64,000 bases of DNA from Agrobacterium larrymoorei (lineage in GTDB: Bacteria > Pseudomonadota > Alphaproteobacteria > Rhizobiales > Rhizobiaceae), in contig NZ_JAAMFB010000027.1 of NCBI RefSeq assembly GCF_013322225.1, positions 248,001 through 312,000 on the forward strand, written 5' to 3'. The notes beneath the pieces are model-generated. The model was not told where the DNA came from and searched no databases. It saw only the letters and a program-made list of their open reading frames with translations. Shown here piece by piece: positions 31,330 to 48,145 of the stretch (its first letter is position 1; every line of letters starts with the position of its first letter). The position numbers were made by a program, and so were the translations under genes.

Positions 31330-32466
31330 TTAGTTCACGCCTTTTTCGAGTGAGACGAAGTAGCCGGGTTTATAAGTGACCGGCAGGAATTTTTTGTGGA
31401 AGTCCTCGAAGTTCTTTTCCGGATCGAGCTCTGCAAAGAGTTCCGGGTGGAACCACTTGGCAAACTGCTGAATCGGGAAGAACTCGTAAGGCGCGCCATA
31501 AAACTGGTGCCAGACGGCATGAACATTGCCGTTCTTGACGGCATTCAGTTCGGGAAACGGCGTGCGCGTCATCAGCTTCGCCAGACGTTCGCGCGACAAT
31601 GTCATATCTGCGCCGCGACCAACGGGAACGAACTGGTTGATGTCCGATTCTGCCGCCCAGTTGGAGCCGGTGACGATGACATGCTGAGGATCGGAAACGA
31701 CCAGCTGCTCCGGGTTCAGGTCGCCGAATGTCGTCGTGATCACGTCTGCCGCGATGTTGTGACCACCCGCCTGCTCGATCATTGCACCGAAATTGACAGG
31801 GCCGAAGGTGCGGCAGCAATTGTTCTCGCCGGAAATGCCCGGAGCGCGCTCGATGAAAACGCCTGGGCGCTTGAGGTTCTTGACGCTTGCAAGCTTTTCG
31901 GTAACGAGCGCAATTTGTTCGCGGCGGTAAGCCATGAACTCCTCGGCGCGCTTTTCTGCCCCAAAGATCTGGCCAAGCGCGCGAATGGAGCGCTCGGTGT
32001 TCTTTTCCGGGTCCAACCGGAAATCGAGATAGACGACTTTAATCCCAGCTGCCGCAGCCTTTTCTTCAAAGCCGCTTTCCTTGGCGCTGTTTTCTGCTTC
32101 CAGGTTGAGCGTGATGACATCGGGAGCCAAGGCAATCGCAGCTTCAAGACTGAAACCACCCTGCGGCAGATAGCCGAACTGTGGCAGATCGTTGATTTGG
32201 GGAAAACGCTCGACGTAGGCCGTGTAGCTGTCTGGGTCTTTCTTGATCAGATCATCACGCCAGCCAACGATGGTATCGAATGTCTGGTCGCCCTTCAGCG
32301 CTGCGATGATGTGAACCTGACGCGCTTCGCCAATAATGATGCGCTTTGCAGGGAGGTCCATTTCCACGGTGCGTCCGGCAGCGTCGATGATCTCGGCAGA
32401 GAAGGCTGGCATGGAAAACATCGCCAACGCGAGGGTGGCAATAGCGCCAAGGGCTCTGAAATTCAT
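31330..32466 (-). CDS. ABC transporter periplasmic binding protein for an iron chelate (paralogue 1)
   Basis: A cluster A-II (TroA/FepB-like) binding protein of 378 residues with a Sec signal peptide (LATLALAMFSMPAFSAE). The mature N-terminus IIDAAGRTVEMDLPAKRIII is the class hallmark. Mid-protein NNCCRTFGPVNFG has two adjacent cysteines, also present in the paralogue at 32560. The C-terminus has VWHQFYGAPYEFFPIQQFAKW. AAGGGA precedes the ATG. A strong hairpin lies between the two binding-protein genes, which may tune their ratio. Confidence 0.92.
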   Translation of the reverse strand: MNFRALGAIATLALAMFSMPAFSAEIIDAAGRTVEMDLPAKRIIIGEARQVHIIAALKGDQTFDTIVGWRDDLIKKDPDSYTAYVERFPQINDLPQFGYLPQGGFSLEAAIALAPDVITLNLEAENSAKESGFEEKAAAAGIKVVYLDFRLDPEKNTERSIRALGQIFGAEKRAEEFMAYRREQIALVTEKLASVKNLKRPGVFIERAPGISGENNCCRTFGPVNFGAMIEQAGGHNIAADVITTTFGDLNPEQLVVSDPQHVIVTGSNWAAESDINQFVPVGRGADMTLSRERLAKLMTRTPFPELNAVKNGNVHAVWHQFYGAPYEFFPIQQFAKWFHPELFAELDPEKNFEDFHKKFLPVTYKPGYFVSLEKGVN

Positions 32467-32495
32467 GGGATAATCCCTTCTTTATAAATAGCAGT

Positions 32496-32519
32496 GCGAG
32501 GCGACTTTCGCCGCCTCGC
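32496..32519 (-). other. Intercistronic hairpin between the two binding-protein genes
   Basis: GCGAGGCG pairs with CGCCTCGC across 8 nt. On the minus-strand transcript no T-run follows, so it is more likely an mRNA-stabilising or partly attenuating structure than a terminator. Confidence 0.55.
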
Positions 32520-32559
32520 TTTGGTCATTATCTGGCACCGCAATGCCATCTGCATTTCC

Positions 32560-33693
32560 TTACTTGTCGTCCTTCAGGGACACGAAGTAGCCGGGCTTGT
32601 AATCCAGTGGCAGGAAGCGGGCGTGCAGTTCCTTGAACGTCGCTTCAGGATCGAGATCCTTGAAGAGATCCGGATGCAGCCACTTGGCAATTTCCTGAAT
32701 GGCGACGAACTGGTACGGGTTGTTGTAGAACTGGTGCCAGATGGCGTGAACGTTGCCGTCCTCTACAGCCTTGACGCCAGTAAAGGCCGGGCGCTTCGTC
32801 AGGTTCTCCAGTTTGCGACGGGCTTCTTTCAAATCCGCGCCGTAGCCGACACCGACCCAGTTGCCGCCGGGAACATAAGCGTCCCACTTTCCGCCAGTAA
32901 CGATGATCTGTTCGGGGTTGGAGGCGATGACCTGCTCGGGATTGACCGTGCCGAAAGTGCCCGGAATGATATCCTTGGCCATGTTGATGCCACCGGCCAG
33001 TTCCACCATCTTGCCGAAGTTTTCGTTTCCGAAGGACATGCAGCAATCGTCGGAATAGCCGCCCGCGCGCTCAATGAACACGACCGGCTTCTTCGGGTTT
33101 TCCTTTTCCAGAACGTCCGTTACGCGGGCGATGCTGTCAGAGCGGAACTTGATGAAATCTTCCGCCACATCTTCCTTGCCCATCAGCTTGCCCATGATGC
33201 GCATGCTCGGCTCGGTGTTTTCCATCGGCTTTTCACGGAAATCGACGTAGACGAGAGGAATACCGACCTTGCCAAGTTTCTCGATATAACCCGCCTCTTC
33301 CGTCGCCGTCTTGGCGTCGACGTTCATCAGAATAACGTCTGGTTTAAGCGCAACGGCCTGCTCGATATCGAAAGTGCCATCCTTCATGCCGCCGAATGTC
33401 GGCAGCTTGGCGATATCGGGGTATTTCGCCAGGTAGGCTTCGTATGATTCAGGATCGGCCTTGGGCAGATCATCGCGCCAGCCGACGACGTGCTCGAACG
33501 GATTATTCTTGTCCAGAGCGGCGAGGAAATAGATTTGGCGGCCCTCACCGAGAATGACGTGCTTTACCGGCACGTTCACTTCGACATCACGCCCCGTAAC
33601 GTCTTTAAGTGTAACTTTTTCGGCAAAGGCGGGCCAGACAGTGGAAACGAGAAGGCCCATTGCAAGAACGGCGGATTTGCCTGTAATGCGCAT
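32560..33693 (-). CDS. ABC transporter periplasmic binding protein for an iron chelate (paralogue 2)
   Basis: First gene of the operon, 377 residues, signal peptide AVLAMGLLVSTVWPAFAE. It aligns along its whole length with the next gene (VGWRDDL, VFIERA, GGxN, VxVTGxxW, WHQFY, YKPGYFVSL shared) and keeps the adjacent Cys pair (DDCCMSFGNENFG). The two probably arose by tandem duplication and may bind different chelates through one permease. The divergent methyltransferase shares its control region, which has candidate Irr and RirA boxes. Confidence 0.92.
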   Translation of the reverse strand: MRITGKSAVLAMGLLVSTVWPAFAEKVTLKDVTGRDVEVNVPVKHVILGEGRQIYFLAALDKNNPFEHVVGWRDDLPKADPESYEAYLAKYPDIAKLPTFGGMKDGTFDIEQAVALKPDVILMNVDAKTATEEAGYIEKLGKVGIPLVYVDFREKPMENTEPSMRIMGKLMGKEDVAEDFIKFRSDSIARVTDVLEKENPKKPVVFIERAGGYSDDCCMSFGNENFGKMVELAGGINMAKDIIPGTFGTVNPEQVIASNPEQIIVTGGKWDAYVPGGNWVGVGYGADLKEARRKLENLTKRPAFTGVKAVEDGNVHAIWHQFYNNPYQFVAIQEIAKWLHPDLFKDLDPEATFKELHARFLPLDYKPGYFVSLKDDK

Positions 33694-35074: not shown

Positions 35075-35317
35075 TTGACGCAATAACTGGCATTCAAGAT
35101 CGCTGACAGGCTCTCGCCCCGCTGCCGCAACGTGGTATATGATCTGCCCTTCTCGGAATTGGCCGTATTCGAGTAGAAAATCATTTCGCTTGGGAGAGCT
35201 ATGAGATAGCTTTCAATCCAACATGAAGCAGCACTCCTTGCTGAAAGAAACCTGGCATAATCGATGCGAGGTTTTGCTTGCATCAAACAACACTCAGGCG
35301 CCCGATCCTCAACGCCC

Positions 35318-36364
35318 ATGAAGATAGACCGGAAGACGACACTCAAAGATGTGGCGCGGGAGGCTGGTGTTTCACTCAGTACCGCTTCCCACGCGATCAA
35401 TGGTACGGCCAAGCTGACGGTCGATGTCCGCGACCGGGTGATAGAGGTTGCCCGGACCCTCGGTTATCTTGAAACGCGCAGGCAAAAGGCATCCATCGCA
35501 ACCCTGCGCGTCGTGCTTCTTGCCATGACCAATGATGCCGCGCCGCAAAGCGACCTCAACATGGTTAGCTGGACGATGCTGAACGGGTTCAGGCGGGAAT
35601 GTGAAAGACGCGCCATCCGCATCGTTCCGCTGGTAAGCGCCACAAGTCGGGTAGACCCTCAGCAGGTGGTTGCGGCAGCGCAACAGGAGAGTGTCGATGG
35701 GATCGTCGTATTAAACGATGACAGGGCGGAACTCGTTCAAACGCTTTCATCGCTTAACCTGCCGGTGGTTATCATCAATGGTGAAGATCCGGCGATGGTC
35801 GTTGATACCGTGACGGCAGAAAATAGATTTGGAGCACGCCTCGGCATCGAAAATCTGCTTTCCCTTGGACATAAGAAGATACTGCATATCACATGGAAGG
35901 GGCGCACGACCATTCGACGCCGCTTCGACGGCTACAGTGACGCGTTTCTGGCCGCAGGATTGCCGGTAGAAACCAATATGGTGGTCGAGGTCGAAAGCTA
36001 CGAACCTGCCTGCGGTGAGCGTGTCGTCAGGGATTTGCTAGAGCAGCCGGTGCCGCTTAGGGGGGCAACGGCGATCTTCTGCGCGGCTGACAACCTCGCG
36101 CTTGGTTGTCTCAAGGCCCTCGGCGAGGCTGGCATCAGGGTACCGGAAGACATCTCGGTCCTAGGTTTCGATGACATTATGCCGGCGGCTTTCACCACGC
36201 CACCGCTTAGCACCATTCAGCTTCCTGCTGATAGGCTGGGTGCAGCAGCGCTTTCCTTGCTGGAGCAGAGATTGGTCGCCGCCGATCCCACGCGGCCTGC
36301 ACATAGACTGGAGCTCGGCTGTCGCCTCGTTCTAAGGGGCAGCATCGCGCCGCCCCCAAAATAA
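35318..36364 (+). CDS. LacI family transcriptional regulator
   Basis: A sugar-responsive repressor of 348 residues. The HTH at the N-terminus reads TTLKDVAREAGVSLSTASHAIN, followed by the hinge helix, and the type 1 periplasmic-binding-like sensor domain runs from about residue 60 (FDDIMPAAFTTPPLSTIQ near the end). The ATG at 35318 begins the normal domain; an upstream frame is ignored. Its stop is 11 bp from the convergent permease gene of the glycan locus. It probably controls that locus through the two 16-bp palindromes at 44546 and 44686. Confidence 0.94.
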   Translation: MKIDRKTTLKDVAREAGVSLSTASHAINGTAKLTVDVRDRVIEVARTLGYLETRRQKASIATLRVVLLAMTNDAAPQSDLNMVSWTMLNGFRRECERRAIRIVPLVSATSRVDPQQVVAAAQQESVDGIVVLNDDRAELVQTLSSLNLPVVIINGEDPAMVVDTVTAENRFGARLGIENLLSLGHKKILHITWKGRTTIRRRFDGYSDAFLAAGLPVETNMVVEVESYEPACGERVVRDLLEQPVPLRGATAIFCAADNLALGCLKALGEAGIRVPEDISVLGFDDIMPAAFTTPPLSTIQLPADRLGAAALSLLEQRLVAADPTRPAHRLELGCRLVLRGSIAPPPK

Positions 36365-36375
36365 GCAATGTCTTA

Positions 36376-37434
36376 TTATTTCATCCCTGTGCCAGCGATA
36401 CCCGTCGTGATGTAGCGCTGGAGGAAAAGAAACACGACGGTTACGGGCGCAAGGCTGAGGAACGTCATGGCAAGGATATAATGCCACTGGACGGAAAACT
36501 CTCCCTGGAATGCATTCAACCCCACCTGAAGCGTGAAATTTTCCCTGCTGCTAAGGACGATCAGCGGCCATAGAAAGTCATTCCAGCGCCACAGCACGGA
36601 GAATATCGCAAGCACCGCAAGGGCAGGGGCCGTTAGTGGCAGGATAATGCGCCAGAATATGCGGAACTCGCTGGCTGCATCGACCCGCGCAGCTTCGATA
36701 AGCTCGTCCGGTATGGTGAGCATGTACTGCCGCAGAAGAAATACGCCGGTCGGCGTTGCGACCGTGGGAATAATGACGCCCCAGAGATTGTCGACAAGAC
36801 CGACGCCGACGATAACGAGATATGCCGGAACCATCACAACTGTCAGAGGGATCATCAGGGTGGAAATGATAAGCACGAAAATCGCCTTGTCGCCCCTGAA
36901 ACGATATTTCGACAACGCAAATGCCGCCATCGCATTAACGATCAAGGTCAGGATTGTGGCGACGAACGTCACGAATACGGAATTCTTCAAAAAGGTGAAG
37001 AAGCTGAACTGGGTCAATGGATCGGTGAAGTTTTGTGTCGCCACGGTCAGTTTCTGAACGGGTGCCATCTCCCTCGTATCGACATTGATCGGAGGACCCG
37101 GATTGACGGGATCGACCATCTGCGCACGCAGGCCGACCCTGCGGACCATCGCCATTTCGCGAGTAGAGCCGTCGACGTTTACCGTCCACAAGCTCAAGGG
37201 CCGTTCGTATCCGGGAACCACGGTCTGAACGGCGGCACGCGGCAGGAGGCTTGGCGGAAAGCGTGTGATTTCGGCCTCCGGTTTCAGTGATGACATCGCG
37301 GCCCAGACCACGGGGATCAGCACGGCAAGCGTTCCGCCGATCAGCCAGACCCATGACAGTATATCTGTCAGCCCGATGCGTCCGGGTCGGCGAGTGCGGG
37401 TTAGAAATGCGACTGCATTGATGCTGCTGGACAT
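36376..37434 (-). CDS. Sugar ABC transporter permease, MalG type, with a long periplasmic insertion
   Basis: A permease of 352 residues, some 60-70 longer than standard MalG subunits. The extra residues (about 55-125) lie between helix 1 and helix 2 and contain PGYERPLSLW, a repeated MAxVxRxxL theme and NPGPPINVDT, so they face the periplasm. The EAA loop is IEAARVDAASEFRIFWRIILPL and the C-terminus QRYITTGIAGTGMK. Last gene of the leftward glycan operon. The insertion may contact the binding protein; such long MalG forms occur in other rhizobial importers. Confidence 0.93.
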   Translation of the reverse strand: MSSSINAVAFLTRTRRPGRIGLTDILSWVWLIGGTLAVLIPVVWAAMSSLKPEAEITRFPPSLLPRAAVQTVVPGYERPLSLWTVNVDGSTREMAMVRRVGLRAQMVDPVNPGPPINVDTREMAPVQKLTVATQNFTDPLTQFSFFTFLKNSVFVTFVATILTLIVNAMAAFALSKYRFRGDKAIFVLIISTLMIPLTVVMVPAYLVIVGVGLVDNLWGVIIPTVATPTGVFLLRQYMLTIPDELIEAARVDAASEFRIFWRIILPLTAPALAVLAIFSVLWRWNDFLWPLIVLSSRENFTLQVGLNAFQGEFSVQWHYILAMTFLSLAPVTVVFLFLQRYITTGIAGTGMK

Positions 37435-37436
37435 GA

Positions 37437-38432
37437 TCAGGACTCCATCTTCTTGCCGAGACGCAATTGCAGCAGTGTAAGAACCAGAAGGACCAGTCCC
37501 ATCAGGACGGAAGCTGCCGATGCCAGTCCGAATAGCCTCAGGTCGCTGCCGAATGCCATCTGGTAGATGTATTGGACGACGAAAGTATTGGCGGTGCCTG
37601 GACCGCCACCATTGGTAAGAACCCAGGCTTCATCGAAGATTTGTACCGAGCGGATCATCAATAGGATCAGCACGACGAGCAGGTTTGGCCCAAGCAGGGG
37701 CAATGTTATACGAAACAGGACGCGCCTAGGCGATGCGGCATCGATGGCGGCTGCTTCATATAGGTCTTTCGGGATTGCCTGAAGGCCCGCAAGCAGAATG
37801 AGGGTGTAAAAGCCCATATGAAACCAGATTGACACCACAACGACGAAGAAGCGTGACCAGCCGACATCGAGCAGGAATATTTCCGGCGGCACACCGAGCA
37901 TCTGTAGGAAAGCGTTCAGGAGGCCGTTCCGGTCCAGAAACCATTTCCAGATAAGCCCGATGACGACGGGTGAAAGCAGGACTGGATAAAAGAACATGGC
38001 GCGGAAAAAACCGCGCGCCGCCATCGCCCGGTTCAGGATCAGCGCTGTGATGAGGGCCACCAGCAGCGTTGCTATAACGTTGAAAGCCACGAACCAAAGT
38101 GTATTCCAGATCGCCGTCCAGAAAAGCGATTCCTGACAACTGCCGGGCTCCATGTAGCTTCGGCAATCCAGAAGCTTCGTGAAATTTTCAAACCCGACGA
38201 AAGGCCGGTTGGTTATGAGAAGTTCGGTGCCTCCGGTGAAGGCGTAACCCACGGCAATTGCAATAGGAAGGAACGTAAAAATGCCGAATAAAACGAGGTT
38301 CGGCGCGAGAAAAACATAGGGCATGCCCCTGTTCCCGATCAGGCTCTCGATGAAATTGATCGGACGCTCGACCACGGCCATAAGGCCGTCGAGCAGTCGA
38401 TCTGAAAGCTGGCTAAGTTTCGGATCGGCCAT
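37437..38432 (-). CDS. Sugar ABC transporter permease, MalF type
   Basis: A 331-residue permease with six helices after a 35-residue cytoplasmic tail. The first helix is VFLAPNLVLFGIFTFLPIAIAV, a periplasmic loop contains a Cys pair (LLDCRSYMEPGSCQES) that may form a disulfide, and the EAA loop is YEAAAIDAASPRRVLFRITLPLL. It lies 2 bp from both neighbours in the operon. Confidence 0.94.
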   Translation of the reverse strand: MADPKLSQLSDRLLDGLMAVVERPINFIESLIGNRGMPYVFLAPNLVLFGIFTFLPIAIAVGYAFTGGTELLITNRPFVGFENFTKLLDCRSYMEPGSCQESLFWTAIWNTLWFVAFNVIATLLVALITALILNRAMAARGFFRAMFFYPVLLSPVVIGLIWKWFLDRNGLLNAFLQMLGVPPEIFLLDVGWSRFFVVVVSIWFHMGFYTLILLAGLQAIPKDLYEAAAIDAASPRRVLFRITLPLLGPNLLVVLILLMIRSVQIFDEAWVLTNGGGPGTANTFVVQYIYQMAFGSDLRLFGLASAASVLMGLVLLVLTLLQLRLGKKMES

Positions 38433-38434
38433 CG

Positions 38435-39541
38435 CTACTGTCTCCCCGCATCGCTCATGCGTGGAATCGCCAGCTCAGTCGCAGGATCGAACATATGTAC
38501 GCGTCCGTGGGCCGGCGTTATTTTCAGAATTGACCCGGGATGCGGAGCGAAATGACCTGCCTGATGCACGATGATCGGCTCTTTTTGCCCTTCGAGATTT
38601 CCATAAATATACGTCTCCGTTCCTAGGCTTTCATGATACTGGACTTCGAATGGCAAACCCCGATCGGTCGAAATTTCGAAGTGGGACGGTCGCACGCCCG
38701 CAAGAACCTGCTGTCCCGCTTTTACGGCAGCAGGATCCGCATCGCAGGCGATAGGGATGCCGTAGCCTGCATCTATCGTCAGGCTTCCATCGCCAGCGGT
38801 TGCTATTGTGCCTTTCAGGATATTCATGCGTGGGGAACCAAGGAACCCGGCGACAAAGAGATTGCGGGGATTGTCGAACAGCTCGAGCGGCGTGCCGACC
38901 TGCTCCACCCGACCGGCCCGCAATACGACGATCTTGTCAGCCATCGTCATGGCCTCCACCTGATCATGCGTGACATAGATCATCGTCGTCTTGATGTCGC
39001 GGTGAAGCCGGGTGATTTCCGCGCGGGTCTGGACACGCAGCGCAGCATCGAGGTTGGAGAGTGGTTCGTCGAACAGGAAGATATCGGGTTCACGCACGAT
39101 GGCGCGGCCAATCGCAACCCGCTGACGCTGGCCACCGGATAGCTGTTTTGGCTTTCGGTCCAGATAGGGTTCCAAGGCAAGCATCCTTGCTGCCTCGTTG
39201 ATACGGCTTTCAATCTCCGCCCGTTTGAACCGCAGGTTCTCAAGGCCGAACGCAAGGTTCTTCCTCACGCTCATGTGCGGATAAAGAGCATAGGATTGGA
39301 AAACCATAGCGATCTTGCGCTCGGCGGGCGATAATGCGCTTACGTCCTTGTCGCCAATGGCTATGATGCCGGATGAAACATCCTCCAGCCCTGCGATAAT
39401 TCGTAGAAGTGTCGACTTTCCACATCCGGAAGGGCCGACAAAAACGACGAATTCCCCGTCTTTGATATCGAGGTCGATCTCGTGCAATACATGAACGGCA
39501 CCGAACGCCTTGTTGACGTTCTCTAGTTTAAGGCTTCCCAT
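38435..39541 (-). CDS. Sugar ABC transporter ATP-binding protein (UgpC/MsmX type)
   Basis: The ATPase of the glycan importer, 368 residues: Walker [11 protein letters not shown]-loop [12 protein letters not shown], signature LSGGQRQR, Walker [14 protein letters not shown]-loop YVTHDQ, then a TOBE domain. The start codon overlaps the stop of the GH28-like gene (TAATG), so expression is coupled to the degradative enzymes. Confidence 0.96.
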
Positions 39542-40893
39542 TACCTGCTCCCTTCAGGCAAGGTCGTCATCGCGACGATCTCCTGCTCATTCCATCCCTT
39601 CGCCAGGGGGTTAATTCTTTCGATGATGACATCGCGAGCCGAAAAGCCATCGACACCGGCCAGAAAAATTGCAGGCATTCCGCCGGGATAGTCATGCAGA
39701 CCCACGATTTTGCCCGCACTGTCACAGGTCCAAGCATTGGCTCTACCAGCACTCGTCGAACTCGGAGCGATGTCGGCATTGGTTGGCCGCATGTCGAATT
39801 GCTGGCCCGTGCCGAGTTGGCCCTCACGTTGCTCCAGTGAAATACGCTCGAGTGCGATATTGTGAATGCCAGCTTGAGAGGCGGAGATAAGGTTGATCGC
39901 GCCCTCCATAGAGCCGGTCAGGCCTTCAACGATGAGATTCTCAATTCGCTGAGCCGGTCGCTCGGGCCGCCGGTCCACTTGCGTCACCGTCAAGGCCTCA
40001 CCTGATCCCCAAAAGCCGCCAGGAGTTTCGCGGCAACGGACGTCGATGCGGGAAAATCGGATATTCCGCATTACCCCTCCGTCTCGCGAAAAGAGGCCAA
40101 GTCCGCGGTTGGATTCGTAAATGGTACAATCTTCGAAAGCGATATTGGTGAAATCTCCAAAAGATTCAGTGCCAAGTTTTAGCGCGCAGCTCAAGCTAGA
40201 GACATGGCAGCCGCGAACCATGATGTCCTGGCACGCCCCGACCGCTTGCTGATCTGGTCCCGCGCTCGTCTTCAGGCAAATCCCGTCATCCGCCGTCGAT
40301 ATGTGGCATTCTTCGATACGTGCACGGCGACAAGCGTCGAGGACGATGCCGTCGGTATTGGGCAGAAGCCTGTCGTTGGATATGCGAACCCTGCTGACGA
40401 TCACGTCTTCACAGTTCACAAGGTGAAGTGTCCACATTGGGGAATCGTCTACGGTGAAGTCCTCGAGCTTCACATTTTGGCAAGCTTCCAGCACCACGAC
40501 GCGCGGACGCCGCGCTGCGGGAACGTATGTGCCCATGACCTCATCATTTCCGTCGATGAAATATTTTCCGCCAGCCTCGATTTTGCCTGTACCGGTAATG
40601 GCGATCTGGTCGGCATTTCGGGCGATAATCATGGCGCGATCAGAGTTCTCGGCGATCACCGAAACGCGATTATCGTCATAGGCCATGTAGTCGGGAACAG
40701 GGGCAATCGTTGAGCCCTGCGCGAGATGAAGTTCGACGTGACTCGCAAGCCGCAATCCCCTGCAAAGATGGCGACCGTTCCGTAACGACACCCTGCCGCC
40801 ACCCATAGCGGTAAGACTGTCTATCGCTGCCTGTATCTCAAGCGTCGCGTCTCTTCCCGTTGCAGAAATTTGGATATCATGAGCCTGCCTCAT
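39541..40893 (-). CDS. GH28-like right-handed beta-helix enzyme (polygalacturonase family)
   Basis: A 450-residue cytoplasmic parallel beta-helix protein related to polygalacturonases. The N-terminal [21 protein letters not shown] is the pectate-lyase-superfamily start. PNTDGI and ADDGICLK hold the catalytic aspartates of GH28. The next GH28 motif, GHG, is replaced by [12 protein letters not shown], so the His is absent. That variant is seen in some exo-acting GH28-like proteins and may mark a rhamnogalacturonan or other specificity, or a changed mechanism. No signal peptide, so it works on imported oligosaccharides. Coupled to the GH105-like gene by an ATGA overlap. Confidence 0.83.
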
Positions 40894-41996
40894 GCCGTTT
40901 TCTGTCCTTCAAGCAGAAGGTCTGTAAGGAGCAACATCGTCAATGCTTGGCCGTATGGGGTCGGGAGATTTGGTATTTTCCTGTAAAAATCAAGGTCATG
41001 ACCCATCGGTGTGCCGTCTGAAACACCATGGACGACGCCCTCGGCATCGATGTTGGACATAACCGCCCTAAACGCGCTCTCGGCATGGTTTCGGTCATCA
41101 GGAGCAAGCACTCCAGCCTTGATGCCACGCAAGATGCCATAGGCTATGCCCGATGTTGCTGACGTTTCGACAGGGGACGCGGGGTCATCCAGCAGCGTAT
41201 GAAACATGCCGTCATCTCGCTGGTAGCGCTTGAGTGAACTGACCTGGCTCGCAAGAACATTCGCGAGGAAACGCTTGTCCTTGACCTCGATATCTGGAAC
41301 CAGTTCGAATAGCTCGGGGATAGCAACCGTGATCCAGGAATTTCCACGCGCCCAAAAAGCGTTGGCAAAGTTGTGCCGTCCATTGAATGTCCAGCCATGA
41401 TACCAAAGACCAGTCACCGGATCCGAAAGGTAGCGGGCGTGAACCATGAACTGATAGACAGCTTCATCGATCCAGTCCTTCCGGTCGCAAACCACCCCCG
41501 CACGCGCAAGAAACAGGCAGGCCATAAAAAGGGTATCATCCCACAACTCGCCGTCATTCAGTCTCTCTTTAACGACATGTTGAAAGCCGCCATCTTCCGT
41601 CTTCGGTAATTTGTGAACGAGCCAGTCCGCCCAGTCCTCGACGAGAGCCCGAAAATCGGGCCGGCCGACATGCTCCGTCAAGATCACAAGCGGCAGCATC
41701 GGCGCAGAGCTGTTGATCTGGCGAGGCGGCAGGCCGCGCTCGATTTGCCAGGCATACCAGTCCACCAGACTGTTCAGCGCTTTTTTGTCGTTTGCCGCCA
41801 GTGCACGGCGCAGGAAGCCGTAAAGACCGACACCGACTTCCCAGTCCCATTCATCGAACTGAATTTGTCCCTCAAGATTTTCGTGCGCAAGCCCTTCCTG
41901 TATGCCTTTGAGGCGACTGAAGGCGGCCGCAACGCGATCTATCGTCTCGCGGAGGGCGTCGTGGTCTACAGCTATCTGGTTCATGCGATATTCCAT
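40890..41996 (-). CDS. Glycoside hydrolase family 88/105, unsaturated rhamnogalacturonyl hydrolase-like
   Basis: A 368-residue (alpha/alpha)6-barrel enzyme that hydrates the double bond of unsaturated uronosyl sugars left by lyases. Family landmarks are WDWEVGVGLYG, the Asp pair in ELWDDTLFMACLFLAR (catalytic Asp), GLWYHGWTF, FWARGNSW and TSATSGIAYGI. The start overlaps nothing but abuts the stop of the 841-residue protein; an ATG at 41984 is possible. Its presence implies that a polysaccharide lyase makes its substrate, and no known lyase gene is seen in the window, which draws attention to the gene upstream. Confidence 0.92.
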   Translation of the reverse strand: MEYRMNQIAVDHDALRETIDRVAAAFSRLKGIQEGLAHENLEGQIQFDEWDWEVGVGLYGFLRRALAANDKKALNSLVDWYAWQIERGLPPRQINSSAPMLPLVILTEHVGRPDFRALVEDWADWLVHKLPKTEDGGFQHVVKERLNDGELWDDTLFMACLFLARAGVVCDRKDWIDEAVYQFMVHARYLSDPVTGLWYHGWTFNGRHNFANAFWARGNSWITVAIPELFELVPDIEVKDKRFLANVLASQVSSLKRYQRDDGMFHTLLDDPASPVETSATSGIAYGILRGIKAGVLAPDDRNHAESAFRAVMSNIDAEGVVHGVSDGTPMGHDLDFYRKIPNLPTPYGQALTMLLLTDLLLEGQKTA

Positions 41997-44522
41997 TCAC
42001 GAGTAAAAGAGTTGAAAAGCTGCGCTCTCGCCAGAGGCAGCGCCGCTATTGAATGTGATTTCAGGAGCCGGTTGGTCGTGGTCGAAAACCAGAAGCTCTC
42101 CGCCTACGAGAAAATCGCCGTCCCACGAGAGGCTGAGGGTCGGACGTGATGGCGGCTTGACTGTCAGAACCAGATTTTCTGCATCGAAGGATATTTCGGT
42201 CGCGACGATTTTCTTACGAAAACGCTGGAATGCATCCTCGTCGCCACAGCTCACAGCGCTAATCCAGCCGCATCTTTGCCCAGGCGATCTGATTTCCCGT
42301 CCTGCCGTTGGACCCGCCAAGACCGGCTGAAGACCGTTCGTCGCATAAAGGGCAGCAAATCCTGCGCCGGAACGGGTGATTACCCAATTCTGGTCGATGG
42401 TGACTTCGTCCAGTCCGTCGCGCCCGAGATAGGCATGGGTCCAGTCGTTGCGATGGTTTTGCGTGTCGAAGATCAACATTGCCAGATCGCGATGTTGGGC
42501 CACGCGGGGAAGAATTCCACTTCCAGCCCAATAGGAGGGACGCTGGGTGCCCCATGGATCGTCTTCACCGGGGTGGTTGATCCAAAGTCGAGCCATGGGA
42601 TGACCTGCCAGTTTGACGTCGAGCACATGCTGCTGATGACCCTTGCGCCCCGTCTTATGATCGACAACGGTCGAGAGTTGAGCAGCTTCGTTCTTGAAGA
42701 GGATCAGCTTTCCCGGCTCCAGACCTTGGCCGTATCGGGCCTCGATTGCCCTTCCCGGCCCAAGCTGGGAGAAGCCCGTCAAGCGGGTTGGCGGCACGTA
42801 ATCGCTGCAGCAGAACATGGGTAGGGAAGCGACACCATTATTGAGCCAGCCTGTACCAAAAGCGACCTGCGCAAAGGGAGCGAGTTCGGTAAGCGGTCCT
42901 GCGCGTAGTTCCTTATCGTAAGCTCTGCCTTGCGAGCCTGATGGCACACCGCCCAGACTGTGAAGCGCGATCATTTCGAAAATCAGGTCAAGCTGATGGC
43001 GTGCGCGCGATGCCAATGACGGCTGGGCAAAATGTTCAATCGCCAGCAGGCCTATGAAATCGACTGGATAATAAGCAGCGGAGTTCCATTCCGCCAGTCC
43101 ATGGGCCTCAACACTGTCGAACCATTTTTCGAGCCGCTTCTCGGCCAGTTCAGCTTGCTGTCTTCCAGTGCGGCCAGACGCGGTGAAAATCGTGTCTGGT
43201 AGATAGGCACCAGCCAGCAACTGGCTAGTATGAAAGCACAGGACATGGTTTTCGCTCCAGAACCACATTACGTCATTTCCGGGTTCGTCCACCCAGTAGC
43301 GATAGTTGACGATGGAGTTCTTTATGCGGTCCACCAGCTCTTCCGGGAGCCGATGCTCGTAACTGCTTACGAGCCAAAGCAGCGGAACGAGAACGAAGTC
43401 GGAGCAATCTTCCCGCCGGTCTATGGATTGCAGTGTTGTTTCGATGATCGCCTTTATCGTTTGCGCGTCATCGCTATTGGTGGCAACCAGAGCAAGTGCG
43501 CGTCCTATCCGCCAGGCACCGAAACGCGCGCTGAACGAGAGGGCTGCTTTTTTCCTTTCGAGAATATTCTCCGAAATTTGGGACGGTTGCAGGTTGCGCA
43601 TGAAAGCGGCATCTACAACCCCGGTTACGGTTGTGTTTCCTGACCCTATGGCGACGCTGATGCCGTGATATCCGTCAGGGATTTCCTCTGTTTCTGGCAC
43701 GCTCAACGAAATCTCGCCGGTATGCAGAACGCAGGACACGTCTGTCAGGACAGTGTGGTCATGTCCGTGGCTTTTTACGGTGACACGGACCGGCAAATCT
43801 TCTTCGGGGGGCGTATCGAAAAGAAGCTCTAGGCGCTCACCGACGAATACATCCCGGGCTGGCCTGATATCTCTAACAAGTGCGGCAAGCCGTTGCGTTT
43901 CCTCCTGATCCAGCGGGACAGGCAGGACAATCGTCAACGGTTGGTCATCAACAACTTCAAGTTCGAAGAACCAGATGATGTCTCGCTCGGCAAGGTCTTC
44001 GCACAAAAGCACGATGTCGTTGTCGCCAGCCTGAAGAGAAATCGTGATGTCTGCGCTGCTCTCAACGTTGCGGATGAAGGGTTCGAACCTGCATTGTTCA
44101 ACTCCGTTCACCCAGATCCTGACGCCGCCGCATGTGCTTAATCGTAGTTGAAGCTGACGCGGTGCTTCGCACCAGAACGTGCTTTTCAGCCAACGCTGCA
44201 CATGCGTCGGGATATGCCAAAATCCGGTGAACTCCACGCGGCGGTTCGAACCTGGCAGATTGAGATGCGTTGTGCTCCACTGCCGCAGCGGTTCGATTTT
44301 CCGCCCGACCATCTCGTTTTGAAACGCCTTGCGGCAGGGCAAGTCGCCGACATCGACGAAGCCGTTGATAAACCTGTAATTCACTCTGTCTTCCGCTGGG
44401 GACGGAATTCCTGGAAAATGTGAAGAGACAAGTTCCGAAACGAACCAGGCCGTTACAGTCTGCCCCTTGGCCACGCTATAAGTCGGACGTGCCGCAATCG
44501 GCGTGGTTAGCACATCTGTCAT
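41997..44522 (-). CDS. Large protein of unknown family, polysaccharide-lyase-like layout
   Basis: I cannot assign this 841-residue protein to a named family. Three parts can be seen. Residues 90-190 look like a jelly-roll carbohydrate-binding-like domain (LRLSTCGGVRIWVNGVEQC, then LQAGDNDIVLLCEDLAERD). Residues 315-560 are helical and Trp-rich like an (alpha/alpha) toroid, with FWSENH (Asn425, His426), EWNSAAYY (Trp479, Tyr484, Tyr485) and GRAYDKELR. From about 570 the sequence is beta-rich like the sandwich of heparinase or PL8-type lyases (HVLDVKLAGHPMARLW). No signal peptide is visible. It heads the operon with a GH105-like hydrolase, so a lyase function is attractive but is inference. Confidence 0.7.
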   Translation of the reverse strand: MTDVLTTPIAARPTYSVAKGQTVTAWFVSELVSSHFPGIPSPAEDRVNYRFINGFVDVGDLPCRKAFQNEMVGRKIEPLRQWSTTHLNLPGSNRRVEFTGFWHIPTHVQRWLKSTFWCEAPRQLQLRLSTCGGVRIWVNGVEQCRFEPFIRNVESSADITISLQAGDNDIVLLCEDLAERDIIWFFELEVVDDQPLTIVLPVPLDQEETQRLAALVRDIRPARDVFVGERLELLFDTPPEEDLPVRVTVKSHGHDHTVLTDVSCVLHTGEISLSVPETEEIPDGYHGISVAIGSGNTTVTGVVDAAFMRNLQPSQISENILERKKAALSFSARFGAWRIGRALALVATNSDDAQTIKAIIETTLQSIDRREDCSDFVLVPLLWLVSSYEHRLPEELVDRIKNSIVNYRYWVDEPGNDVMWFWSENHVLCFHTSQLLAGAYLPDTIFTASGRTGRQQAELAEKRLEKWFDSVEAHGLAEWNSAAYYPVDFIGLLAIEHFAQPSLASRARHQLDLIFEMIALHSLGGVPSGSQGRAYDKELRAGPLTELAPFAQVAFGTGWLNNGVASLPMFCCSDYVPPTRLTGFSQLGPGRAIEARYGQGLEPGKLILFKNEAAQLSTVVDHKTGRKGHQQHVLDVKLAGHPMARLWINHPGEDDPWGTQRPSYWAGSGILPRVAQHRDLAMLIFDTQNHRNDWTHAYLGRDGLDEVTIDQNWVITRSGAGFAALYATNGLQPVLAGPTAGREIRSPGQRCGWISAVSCGDEDAFQRFRKKIVATEISFDAENLVLTVKPPSRPTLSLSWDGDFLVGGELLVFDHDQPAPEITFNSGAASGESAAFQLFYS

Positions 44523-44545
44523 ACTGCCCGCCTCCCGTCGGGTTT

Positions 44546-44561
44546 ATGAAAATATTTGCAT
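44546..44561. promoter_or_regulatory. Candidate LacI-type operator, site 1
   Basis: ATGAAAATATTTGCAT is a 16-bp near-palindrome preceded by GGTTT, 24 bp before the ATG of the 841-residue protein. The same GGTTTATGAAAATA recurs at 44681 in front of the binding-protein gene. Confidence 0.6.
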
Positions 44562-44685
44562 AAATCGTAAGCCTGCAAATCAGGCTCAATGTGATCTCTG
44601 CCGCGAACAAACAGCTTGACCTTTGCTGTGTCAAGTCGCAAAACAATGAAAGTCGGATTAAGACGAGGAGCTTCAATCCGGTTTA

Positions 44686-44701
44686 TGAAAATAATTTCAT
44701 T
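44686..44701. promoter_or_regulatory. Candidate LacI-type operator, site 2
   Basis: ATGAAAATAATTTCAT, 140 bp from site 1 in the same orientation, ends 11 bp before the binding-protein ATG and so would cover the early transcript or ribosome binding region. Repressor bound at both sites could form a loop over the divergent promoters. Confidence 0.6.
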
Positions 44702-44712
44702 TGGAGGACATT

Positions 44713-45993
44713 ATGCTGAAATTGTTTTCGGGCGTTGGCGCCCTGATGTTCGCTTCCGTGGCCGGTCTGACCATCGCTCATGCTGAAACACGGACCATTA
44801 CTTTTCTTTTCACGGATGATGATCAGGGATATGTTCAGCGAATGGCTGAACTCAGCAAGGAATTCGAGGCAGCCAATCCCGGGGTTAAAATCAATTTTGT
44901 CTCGTCGGGTTACGACGCCGTTTCCAAGCAATTGCCCGTTCAACTTGCTGTAGGCGAAGGTCCAGACGTCGCCAAGATAACGGACTGGCAGCTCGCGCCC
45001 TATTTTCTTGATATGCGGCCGCTGATGAAAGACCCGGATGCTTTTGCCAAGCTTCACGGAACGAGCCTCGGACAGCTTCGCTTGCCCGGCGTCAATGATC
45101 CGAACTCTATAAACGGCTATATGGCTTCGCAGACGCTGAACCTGCCTTTCGTCAATAAAACGCTGTTCGAACAGGCGGGTGAACCTTTGCCTGGCCCGAC
45201 GGCAAAATTCGGTGAGATCGTCGAGGCTTCAGCCAGGGTTGCGAAAGCGACCGGCGTTCAAATTCCCTTCACAATGGACCGTTCCGGCCACAGGTTTTCC
45301 GGTGGTGCGTTTTCCTATGGTTCGACCTATGTAAAAGATGGAAAGTTCAACTTCCCTGACGATGCGGCCCAGAAGTACATCGCAGATGTTTATGCGTGGA
45401 CGCAGAACGGTAGCTTCCCCAAAGAAATGTGGGGCGCAGCTGGTGGTTCGCAATACAAGAACATGGGCGATGAGTTCGTCAACGGAAACGTCGTCACCTA
45501 TCTTGCCGGCAATTGGATGGTTAATCCCTTCCAGAACAAGATCGGCGACGCTTTTGACTGGACCGCGATCAATGCGCCATGCGGCGACGCAGGTTGTTAC
45601 GCGATGCCGGGCGGTACAGCTGTGGTGGGCTTCAAGCGCACGAAGCATCCAGAGGATGTGGCGCACTTCATCGAGTTTCTAGGATCGGAAAAAGTTCAGC
45701 GCGAAATCGCTGAAACCTACGTCGTTTTGACGGGCGCCGAAATCCAGAACCCGCAATACAAGCTGAAGAGCGAAAACGCCAAGGCTGCAATGCAGGTCTT
45801 TCTCGACAACAGGAAAAATGTGCCCGAAGCTGCGAGAGAGTTCGAGCACTCGAAGGGCGGTACGGCAATGTACCAGCAAATCGTCCAGCGCATGAGCCAG
45901 TTGATCGTTGGAGAATTGACCCTGGAGCAGACCTATAAGGTTCTGGCGGACGATGTTGCCAAGATCAATGAAGCTGTGGCTGTGAAGAAGTAG
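44713..45993 (+). CDS. Sugar ABC transporter periplasmic substrate-binding protein
   Basis: The binding protein of the glycan importer, 426 residues, read divergently from the rest of the operon. The Sec signal is LFSGVGALMFASVAGLTIAHA. Family 1 features include FLFTDDDQGYVQRMAELSKEF, GEGPDVAKITDWQL and GNWMVNPFQN. GGAGGA precedes the ATG at 44713; a frame from 44701 would start inside the operator. The cargo is probably an oligosaccharide from pectin or a related acidic glycan, judged from the GH28- and GH105-like genes. Confidence 0.93.
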   Translation: MLKLFSGVGALMFASVAGLTIAHAETRTITFLFTDDDQGYVQRMAELSKEFEAANPGVKINFVSSGYDAVSKQLPVQLAVGEGPDVAKITDWQLAPYFLDMRPLMKDPDAFAKLHGTSLGQLRLPGVNDPNSINGYMASQTLNLPFVNKTLFEQAGEPLPGPTAKFGEIVEASARVAKATGVQIPFTMDRSGHRFSGGAFSYGSTYVKDGKFNFPDDAAQKYIADVYAWTQNGSFPKEMWGAAGGSQYKNMGDEFVNGNVVTYLAGNWMVNPFQNKIGDAFDWTAINAPCGDAGCYAMPGGTAVVGFKRTKHPEDVAHFIEFLGSEKVQREIAETYVVLTGAEIQNPQYKLKSENAKAAMQVFLDNRKNVPEAAREFEHSKGGTAMYQQIVQRMSQLIVGELTLEQTYKVLADDVAKINEAVAVKK

Positions 45994-46168: not shown

Positions 46169-48145
46169 ATGACCCATTTCAACGCTTCCTCTCGTTTGTT
46201 CATCAGGGTCGTCTTGCTCGGCTCCGCTGCGCTTTCGATTGCGATTCCTCAACTTCATGCATCCGAACCATATGCGCCTCATGGTGTCGGTTATTCCGTC
46301 GATGTGCCTGCGCCCAAAGTTCGTTTCCCGCTTCCTGTTGTAGAGAACTACCGGAACCAGACGGGCAAGAATGCCAAGGGAGAAAATGTCCGCGCCTATG
46401 ACGCTCGGGATAATCCTGTCATTCAAATCCTGTCCGGCTTCAATCGCATCTGGACAGTTGGTGACGAGGTATGGGCCAATGGGGGCGCCAATGGCGATGG
46501 GCCGACGAATTTTGATCACGTAAAGATCGTTGACCCGCAGATATGGCGTGAAAACATGCGTTATGTTCTGTCAGTAACGGGGCCTAACCGCACGAAGGAG
46601 GCTGCTTTTCAAGCCTACCTGAATGATCGCCGTTCGCAGGGATACAGCGTTATTGACGGGATGGGACCGCTTGCGCCGTGGTATCGGCAAGGTGCTGGTG
46701 CAACGACAACGATTAACCACACCCTTGCGGATTTCGATCCAAACGCAGTCATCGAGCGAAAGGAGGACGACAAGGGAACCGAAGCGGGGTCACCGGATTC
46801 GGAACTCAAGAATTTCGTGGCTTTCATGAAGATCATGCGCGGACCCGAAGGTACGACATCACCCTCGAAGTATTTTTATTCCTCGCCCCGACCCTGGCGC
46901 ATAAACGATCAGGGCGAGGTTATCGAAACCGGCAAGGAAACCATCGCAGACAAGACTTTCGAAACCTATGAATCTAATCCCGGCGTCATCGTTCCGGCTC
47001 TGAAATACGTCCGTGAAACGCGTGGCCGACAAAAGGATGGCGGATTTCCCAGCGGCCACACCAATGCGGCCTATCTGGCCGCCATCGCCTACGCCTATGC
47101 GGTTCCGGAACGCTTTTCTGAACTGCTGACGAGTGCGTCAGAGCTTGGTGAGAGCCGCATCGTTGCCGGTATGCATTCCCCGCTTGACGTCATCGGTGGT
47201 CGTATCAGCGCAACTGCCATGGCAGCGTCGATCCTGAGCGACCGCAAGAACCAGGATGCTAAAAAGGCAGCCTATGTCGAGCTTCAGGACTACTTCACAA
47301 AGCGATTGCCGCAGGGGCAGACACTGCAGGAATTTGCGCATGGCGAGGACAAGGACGTTGATCGTTTCGCGGATGACGCTGCCAACAAAGCAAATTACCG
47401 AAAGCGAATGACTTATTCATTTGCCCGTAAATCCATCAGCGATGCGCCGATGGTCGTACCGGTCGGCGCCGAGGTTCTGCTCGAAACCAGGCTGCCTTAC
47501 CTCGATGCAGCACAGCGACGCGCTGTACTGTTTTCCACGGGCATCCAGTCCGGTTACCCACTTCTCGATGACAGCAATGGCTGGGGGCGGATCAACCTTG
47601 TGGCAGCCGCTGCGGGATATGCTTCGTTCGACGGCGATGTCGCGGTGACGATGGATGCTTCGGCTGGCGGGTTTAGTGTGGCTGATCGCTGGACGAACGA
47701 TATTTCCGGGGCCGGCCGGCTGGCGAAATCCGGAACGGGCGCGCTCACTTTGAGCGGTAGCAATAGCTACAGCGGCGGCACACTCCTAACGCAAGGCAAC
47801 TTGAAGGCTGCCAGCTCGAAAGCGCTGGGGACAGGCGATGTGCTGGTCTCCGGAGGCGTGCTGGATATTGAGGCCTCTGGCGGCTTGTTACTCAATGGTA
47901 GTTTTCGCCAATCTGGCGGTGAGCTTGCGATAAGACCTGAAGTCGGCGGGGTTCAGGTGGGCAAGGATGTGACGTTGGAAGGCGGTGTCCTAAGGCTTGT
48001 TTTTGAGACAGCACCTGTCGAGGGCAGTCGGTTTGATATTGTATCAGGCAGTTCCCTGACTGGTGAGTTCTCCAGAATAGATGCGGGGAGCGTGAAGGTG
48101 AAACCTCTTTACACAGGCACGACTCTCACAGTTGTTGTTCAATAA
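46169..48145 (+). CDS. Exported PAP2-family acid phosphatase with autotransporter-type repeat tail
   Basis: A secreted protein of 658 residues with signal peptide (VVLLGSAALSIAIPQLHA). The PAP2 (class A acid phosphatase) triad of motifs is complete: KYFYSSPRP (Lys234, Arg241), PSGH (294-297) and ESRIVAGMHSPLD (Arg330, His336, Asp340), so it should hydrolyse phosphomonoesters. From about residue 505 it carries beta-strand repeats of autotransporter passengers (LAKSGTGALTLSGSNSYSGG, then GTGDVLVSGGVLDIEA). No C-terminal beta-barrel follows; it ends in a beta-rich segment TTLTVVVQ. It has no operon partner. Confidence 0.88.
   Translation: MTHFNASSRLFIRVVLLGSAALSIAIPQLHASEPYAPHGVGYSVDVPAPKVRFPLPVVENYRNQTGKNAKGENVRAYDARDNPVIQILSGFNRIWTVGDEVWANGGANGDGPTNFDHVKIVDPQIWRENMRYVLSVTGPNRTKEAAFQAYLNDRRSQGYSVIDGMGPLAPWYRQGAGATTTINHTLADFDPNAVIERKEDDKGTEAGSPDSELKNFVAFMKIMRGPEGTTSPSKYFYSSPRPWRINDQGEVIETGKETIADKTFETYESNPGVIVPALKYVRETRGRQKDGGFPSGHTNAAYLAAIAYAYAVPERFSELLTSASELGESRIVAGMHSPLDVIGGRISATAMAASILSDRKNQDAKKAAYVELQDYFTKRLPQGQTLQEFAHGEDKDVDRFADDAANKANYRKRMTYSFARKSISDAPMVVPVGAEVLLETRLPYLDAAQRRAVLFSTGIQSGYPLLDDSNGWGRINLVAAAAGYASFDGDVAVTMDASAGGFSVADRWTNDISGAGRLAKSGTGALTLSGSNSYSGGTLLTQGNLKAASSKALGTGDVLVSGGVLDIEASGGLLLNGSFRQSGGELAIRPEVGGVQVGKDVTLEGGVLRLVFETAPVEGSRFDIVSGSSLTGEFSRIDAGSVKVKPLYTGTTLTVVVQ

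Follow-up and report, generated by a model that had tools for sequence, protein, structure and literature searches.

Rhamnogalacturonan exolyases of polysaccharide lyase (PL) family 26 (PF21345 members) form a large multi-domain pectin lyase family, and the PL22 oligogalacturonate lyase (Ogl) has a fold different from the one considered here. According to PMC12838403, Ogl is cytoplasmic and feeds the 5-keto-4-deoxyuronate isomerase/reductase route. Exo action of PL15 enzymes is given in the title of PDB entry 3afl and in the abstract of PMC7904915. The uronate dehydratases BcGDH (formerly glycoside hydrolase family GH154) and P29_PDnc are described as carrying out beta-elimination at uronate with GH88/GH105 partners. 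Here, we analyzed a 64,000-nucleotide stretch of Agrobacterium larrymoorei (contig NZ_JAAMFB010000027.1, positions 248,001 to 312,000; the window), in which a candidate uronate lyase gene at 44522..41997 (minus strand; 841 codons from the ATG at 44522 to the stop at 41997) encodes a protein of 841 amino acids (aa). On balance, we favor an oligosaccharide lyase that acts in the cytoplasm, probably in exo mode, and belongs to a sequence family not yet described. By description, its proposed role resembles that of Ogl (cytoplasmic, feeding an isomerase/reductase route) and that of the two dehydratases.

Predicted fold and sequence family

The AlphaFold model of the 841-aa protein (pLDDT 88) comprises N-terminal beta domains (residues about 14-308), an (alpha/alpha) toroid (about 316-585) and an antiparallel beta-sandwich (about 592-825), bearing out the beta/helical toroid/beta order that the initial annotation had read from the sequence. 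It had also proposed a comparison with known lyase folds, and a Foldseek search of the PDB with the catalytic part alone returned toroid/beta-sandwich polysaccharide lyases as all 18 chains at E <= 0.001; neither these strongest fold matches nor any sequence search points confidently to a non-lyase family. PL15 Atu3025 (3afl) ranks first for the catalytic part and PL15 exoHep (6lja) for the whole protein; both are 8-12% identical to it, with no match at the sequence level. Toroid and sandwich together match lyases in structural alignment, and the model places the protein in the predicted fold class of the PL8/12/15/17/21/35/39 lyases. Structural alignments with the PL35 GAGases (8khv, 8khw) and with PL17, PL39 and PL12 lyases give 7-12% identity, and HMMER found no match to the PDB sequences of these enzymes. 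In contrast to them, the 841-aa protein has extra N-terminal beta domains, its sandwich histidine is not family-wide, and it appears to be cytoplasmic, since no signal peptide is apparent when the N-terminus is read by eye.

The species-level genome collection contains 150 candidate stretches encoding relatives, of which 80 were retained. The relatives are 36-74% identical over the best segment and column identity averages 57% over 55 aligned rows, so the frame is a real gene; the annotated extent 41997..44522 proved correct, with an intact frame on the minus strand, while the plus strand is not open and carries many stops. The family gene is present in 32 of 397 genomes of the window's order, in 9 of 398 genomes sampled from the phylum and in 200 of 72,556 plasmid records. 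The family is common in Alphaproteobacteria and extends to Gammaproteobacteria and Haladaptatus, and many of its records come from plants or algae. It splits into two clades about 30% identical to each other, and several genomes of the order have a second copy at 32-34% identity. The relative on a Haladaptatus plasmid (L161:7797-9782, 661 aa) is devoid of the N-terminal beta domains but retains the Asn-His and Tyr motifs; therefore, the catalytic part can stand alone. Another relative (L074:7836-10520) is split into two frames.

No library match to the 841-aa protein was found in Pfam or PHROG at E <= 1, nor any near the cut-off in NCBIfam, and phmmer against PDB sequences gave none at E <= 10. 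A 19-member family profile retrieved four PDB sequences at E <= 10 (best E 0.084), none of them a lyase, and a Pfam scan of the 19 members returned traces of PA14, CBM60, BetaGal_gal-bd and DUF2793. All four annotated records examined carry the product label "hypothetical protein", and no title or abstract opening describing the family turned up in a literature search that reached few of the subscription journals.

Candidate catalytic residues

We examined conservation in three alignments: one of 55 rows (the window plus 54 of the 80 retained loci, picked for spread and completeness), one of 19 rows (five from clade 2) and one of 11 rows that includes the archaeal protein. Asn425, His426 and Tyr484 are invariant in all three (55/55, 19/19 and 11/11 rows). 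Tyr485, which the initial annotation had placed beside Tyr484 among the key residues, is not invariant, as the 19-row alignment has Phe there in its five clade-2 rows. The distance from Asn425 to Tyr484 is always 59, and this is the only invariant Asn-to-Tyr pair 53-63 apart in the 11-row alignment. In the model, the E424-N425-H426 codons (43245..43253, minus strand) correspond to the N-terminus of helix 424-440, where N425 and H426 would be the putative carboxylate neutralizers, and Tyr484 (codon 43071..43073, minus strand), the putative acid and/or base, lies just ahead of helix 487-498.

This arrangement is lyase-like in its spacing. In Table 4 of PMC12088678, the Asn/Tyr pairs are 192/246, 187/241 and 189/243 in PL35, 183/242 in PL8, 240/294 in PL12, 336/390 in exoHep, 201/258 in PL17, 236/299 in PL23 and 186/239 in PL39, and the separations across these nine rows are 53-63. 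For Alg17c, PMC4765187 reports Asn201 and His202 as proposed neutralizers and Tyr258 as the acid. Two PF05426 proteins of our collection (L148 and L150) also have both motifs, with 55 residues from the second Asn of NNH to the Tyr. Another pair, N480-Y535 (55 apart and invariant-looking in the 19-row alignment), was discarded as the catalytic pair in favor of N425-Y484 because the Haladaptatus relative does not retain N480.

Three histidines of the beta-sandwich are possible counterparts of the catalytic His of these lyases. His632 (codon 42627..42629, minus strand; +207 from N425), a candidate base where present, is kept in clade 1 and in the Haladaptatus relative and replaced by Thr in clade 2 (55/55, 14/19 and 7/11 rows in the three alignments). 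H650 (+225) is kept in 52/55, 17/19 and 11/11 rows, and H696 (+271) in all rows of the three (19/19 in the second). H632 was dropped as a universal base, given that clade 2 is without it.

Partner genes and competing explanations

Partners were surveyed in 104 loci (the 80 retained and 24 added later; 84 of clade 1 and 20 of clade 2). Clade 1 has GH105 in 64/84 loci, 63 of them within 300 bp, along with KduI in 16/84 and KduD in 11/84, none of these within 300 bp. In clade 2, GH105 is found in 16/20 loci, KduI in 15/20 (14 within 300 bp) and KduD in 10/20. The importers beside these partners vary, being ABC (ATP-binding cassette) systems of the window type, Opp-type ABC systems or tripartite ATP-independent periplasmic (TRAP) systems. 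A Pseudosulfitobacter record has the order GH88, TRAP genes, kduD, lacI, kduI and hypothetical protein, with no annotated lyase in the 18 kb examined. At the genome level, GH88/105 over the cut-off occurs in 24 of the 32 genomes with the family gene versus none of 20 without it (Fisher p 3e-8), and KduI in 31/32 versus 10/20 (Fisher p 1e-4); these 20 are the no-match genomes listed, 345 further ones of the order lie outside the comparison, and the p-values overstate independence because 8 of the 20 belong to one genus (g3). Three Devosia loci (L063:10492-13596, L061:3772-6816 and L060:10460-12037) have GH38 or GH29 beside the family gene and are without GH105, which may hint at another glycan.

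Taken together, the predicted fold, the residue pattern and the partners argue for intracellular beta-elimination on a uronate, and it is very probable that the protein is either a lyase or a dehydratase. The undescribed lyase of the initial annotation gains support from the toroid-plus-sandwich model, the lyase fold matches and the KduI/KduD/GH105 context of distant relatives. The main rival shares the same beta-elimination chemistry: a non-reducing-end uronate dehydratase would eliminate water from the uronate at the end of an oligosaccharide taken up by the cell and make the GH105 substrate with no glycosidic cut. We regard it as unlikely but live, since both oligosaccharide dehydratases described in the literature surveyed also work with GH88/GH105, and the partner-gene context fits water elimination feeding these enzymes. 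However, the BcGDH-type entries (9o4u and 8oi4) align with only the toroid of the 841-aa protein, over 232 residues, whereas the toroid-plus-sandwich pair matches lyases. Moreover, in the 8 of 32 genomes without GH88/105 over the cut-off, the product of a dehydratase would be stranded unless another enzyme frees it; a lyase, in contrast, is able to yield the unsaturated uronate in free form. As KduI is kept in all eight (seven of which are one genus, g13), we prefer a lyase with a sugar leaving group on both counts. That it would act in exo mode is suggested by its match to exoHep and by its N-terminal beta domains. A sugar-processing enzyme of another kind, such as a glycoside hydrolase, that merely has the toroid fold and takes a different sugar off the same oligosaccharide is improbable, given that the lyase match covers toroid and sandwich jointly and that the invariant Asn-His and Tyr follow the lyase pattern. 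The remaining rival, a C5-epimerase acting on uronate like dermatan sulfate epimerase, would share the proton abstraction and the fold without elimination, but it would leave the frequent pairing with GH105, KduI and KduD unexplained, and we consider it the most improbable of these readings.

Several observations weigh against a lyase. The 18 Foldseek chains have low TM-scores (0.27-0.43 by query length) and root-mean-square deviations of 11-16 A, and the best fold-match Z (11.9) falls short of the value of about 13 below which the tool advises caution with helical folds. Three rows of Table 4 of PMC12088678 have other neutralizers (2Q1F Asp, 3A0O Arg and 2FUQ Glu), and therefore Asn is not universal among such lyases, while the sandwich His of most comparison lyases is not family-wide here (H632 in 14/19 rows, Thr in clade 2). 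A nearby GH105 is absent from 20/84 clade-1 loci (in two of which, L029 and L043, the contig stops in or soon after the gene) and from 4/20 clade-2 loci. Eight of the 32 gene-bearing genomes have no GH88/105 over the cut-off (three with sub-threshold traces), KduI is present in half of the comparison genomes, and the surveyed loci and genomes are phylogenetically non-independent. Finally, hhalign probabilities are 0.2-0.3% against 24 PF07940 proteins (all from one alphaproteobacterial subgroup), 0.5-1.3% against six PF05426 proteins and 0.1% against two PL26 proteins.

These kinship tests used small samples, and CAZy itself and PL families lacking Pfam or PDB entries were outside the search. 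Membership in PF07940, PF05426 or PL26/PF21345 was rejected for the sampled proteins, with no significant sequence or profile similarity, and one genome (G590) carries both a PL26 and the family gene. Because the profile comparison gave no kinship to the three samples, the 841-aa protein looks like a new sequence family of known fold. It would work like the toroid/beta-sandwich lyases and share their fold, and by sequence it falls in none of the families tested, so that we do not assign it to a numbered PL family. A broader description, which we deem likely, is that of a new polysaccharide lyase or uronate dehydratase family, intracellular and acting on imported oligosaccharides, with GH105 as its usual partner, common in Alphaproteobacteria, domain-reduced in haloarchaea and with a clade-specific sandwich base.

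Under the preferred lyase reading, the activity, substrate, exo mode, location and residue roles that we infer would combine as follows. The ABC importer would bring in uronate-containing oligosaccharides, most likely from acidic glycans of plants or algae, and a 4-linked uronate would be bound in the cleft between toroid and beta-sandwich, its carboxylate neutralized by Asn425 with His426. A base would then abstract H5 and Tyr484 would protonate the leaving glycosidic oxygen, so that the next sugar is left carrying a 4,5-unsaturated uronate. This unsaturated uronate would be released by GH105, and KduI/KduD would pass the resulting keto acid into central metabolism. This would give a likely function to a family so far labeled "hypothetical protein" and, if true, add a family to CAZy and supply the missing first step of the GH105/KduI/KduD route in rhizobia and Agrobacterium. 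It would also offer a direct test of whether sequence tells lyases from dehydratases, and the clades with and without the sandwich histidines amount to a natural experiment on which residue serves as the base.

The operon and its surroundings

The 841-aa gene is first in a tightly packed minus-strand operon that reaches 36376, its genes overlapping or lying a few bases apart. As the initial annotation had stated, it heads a glycan-use operon with GH105: the next gene (40890..41996, minus) is of the GH105 unsaturated uronyl hydrolase type, over the cut-off for PF07470 (E 7e-101, 338.1 bits versus 26.6) and NF051900 (552 bits), the NCBIfam label being beta-galactosidase BglB. It is followed by a GH28 of the PglB type (39541..40893, minus; polygalacturonase PglB in NCBIfam) with no export signal apparent by eye, and the presence of this gene suggests that the imported oligosaccharides may be pectic in this genome. 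We did not find the origin of the names BglB and PglB for GH105 and GH28 in the literature searched. The domain scan assigns the remaining genes to an ABC importer ATPase with a MalK OB-fold domain (38435..39541, minus) and two PF00528 permeases (37437..38432 and 36376..37434, both minus). A family-1 solute-binding protein (44701..45993, plus) is divergent from the operon, and a LacI-family regulator (35264..36364, plus) occupies the far end of the cluster, ending just beyond the last permease. The locus is without a known lyase gene, as had been noted, none being found among the eight neighboring proteins scanned.

Between the 841-aa gene and the solute-binding gene there are two 16-base operator-like sites (unstranded), each one mismatch from the palindrome ATGAAAATATTTTCAT. 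They are located before the 841-aa gene (44546..44561) and directly before the solute-binding gene (44685..44700), 139 bases apart. No further copy with up to two mismatches was found elsewhere in the window (0.02 expected by chance), nor was another similar copy found elsewhere in the 4.85-Mb genome. A related palindrome pattern is present in 21 of 24 upstream regions (the window and 23 of the 80 retained loci), 18 of them having two copies when the strict pattern is applied, both counts being without a chance control. These sites are putative operators that a regulator may bind. Scoring of 44480-44760 gave no sigma-70-like promoter and no terminator, and an Rfam scan of the window gave no match.

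Elsewhere in this genome, a KduI over the cut-off (NF002091, 416 bits) is encoded on the window's own contig (C14). Of two PF04962 matches in the genome, the stronger one, on contig C24, was rejected as KduI, as NF002091 picks the C14 gene alone; the C24 protein may be the related IolB. The same contig as the window also has a further GH88/105 gene directly after a PglA-type GH28 (C14 155367-156401, L159). A second sugar cluster with ABC importer genes (C17 62000-81500, L190) includes a PF07940 heparinase II/III-like protein (L190:7317-9104, minus) and a weak GH88-like match (L190:10968-12296, plus), and represents a known-type counterpart of the window arrangement. Within the window, 46169-48145 (plus) encodes a protein that joins a PAP2 phosphatase domain to a C-terminal passenger-associated-transport repeat, and a relative of it adjoins the cluster in 13 loci from Agrobacterium and closely related bacteria. 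At 31330-33693 (minus), we noted by eye in the list of open reading frames a tandem pair of similar exported binding-protein-like genes.
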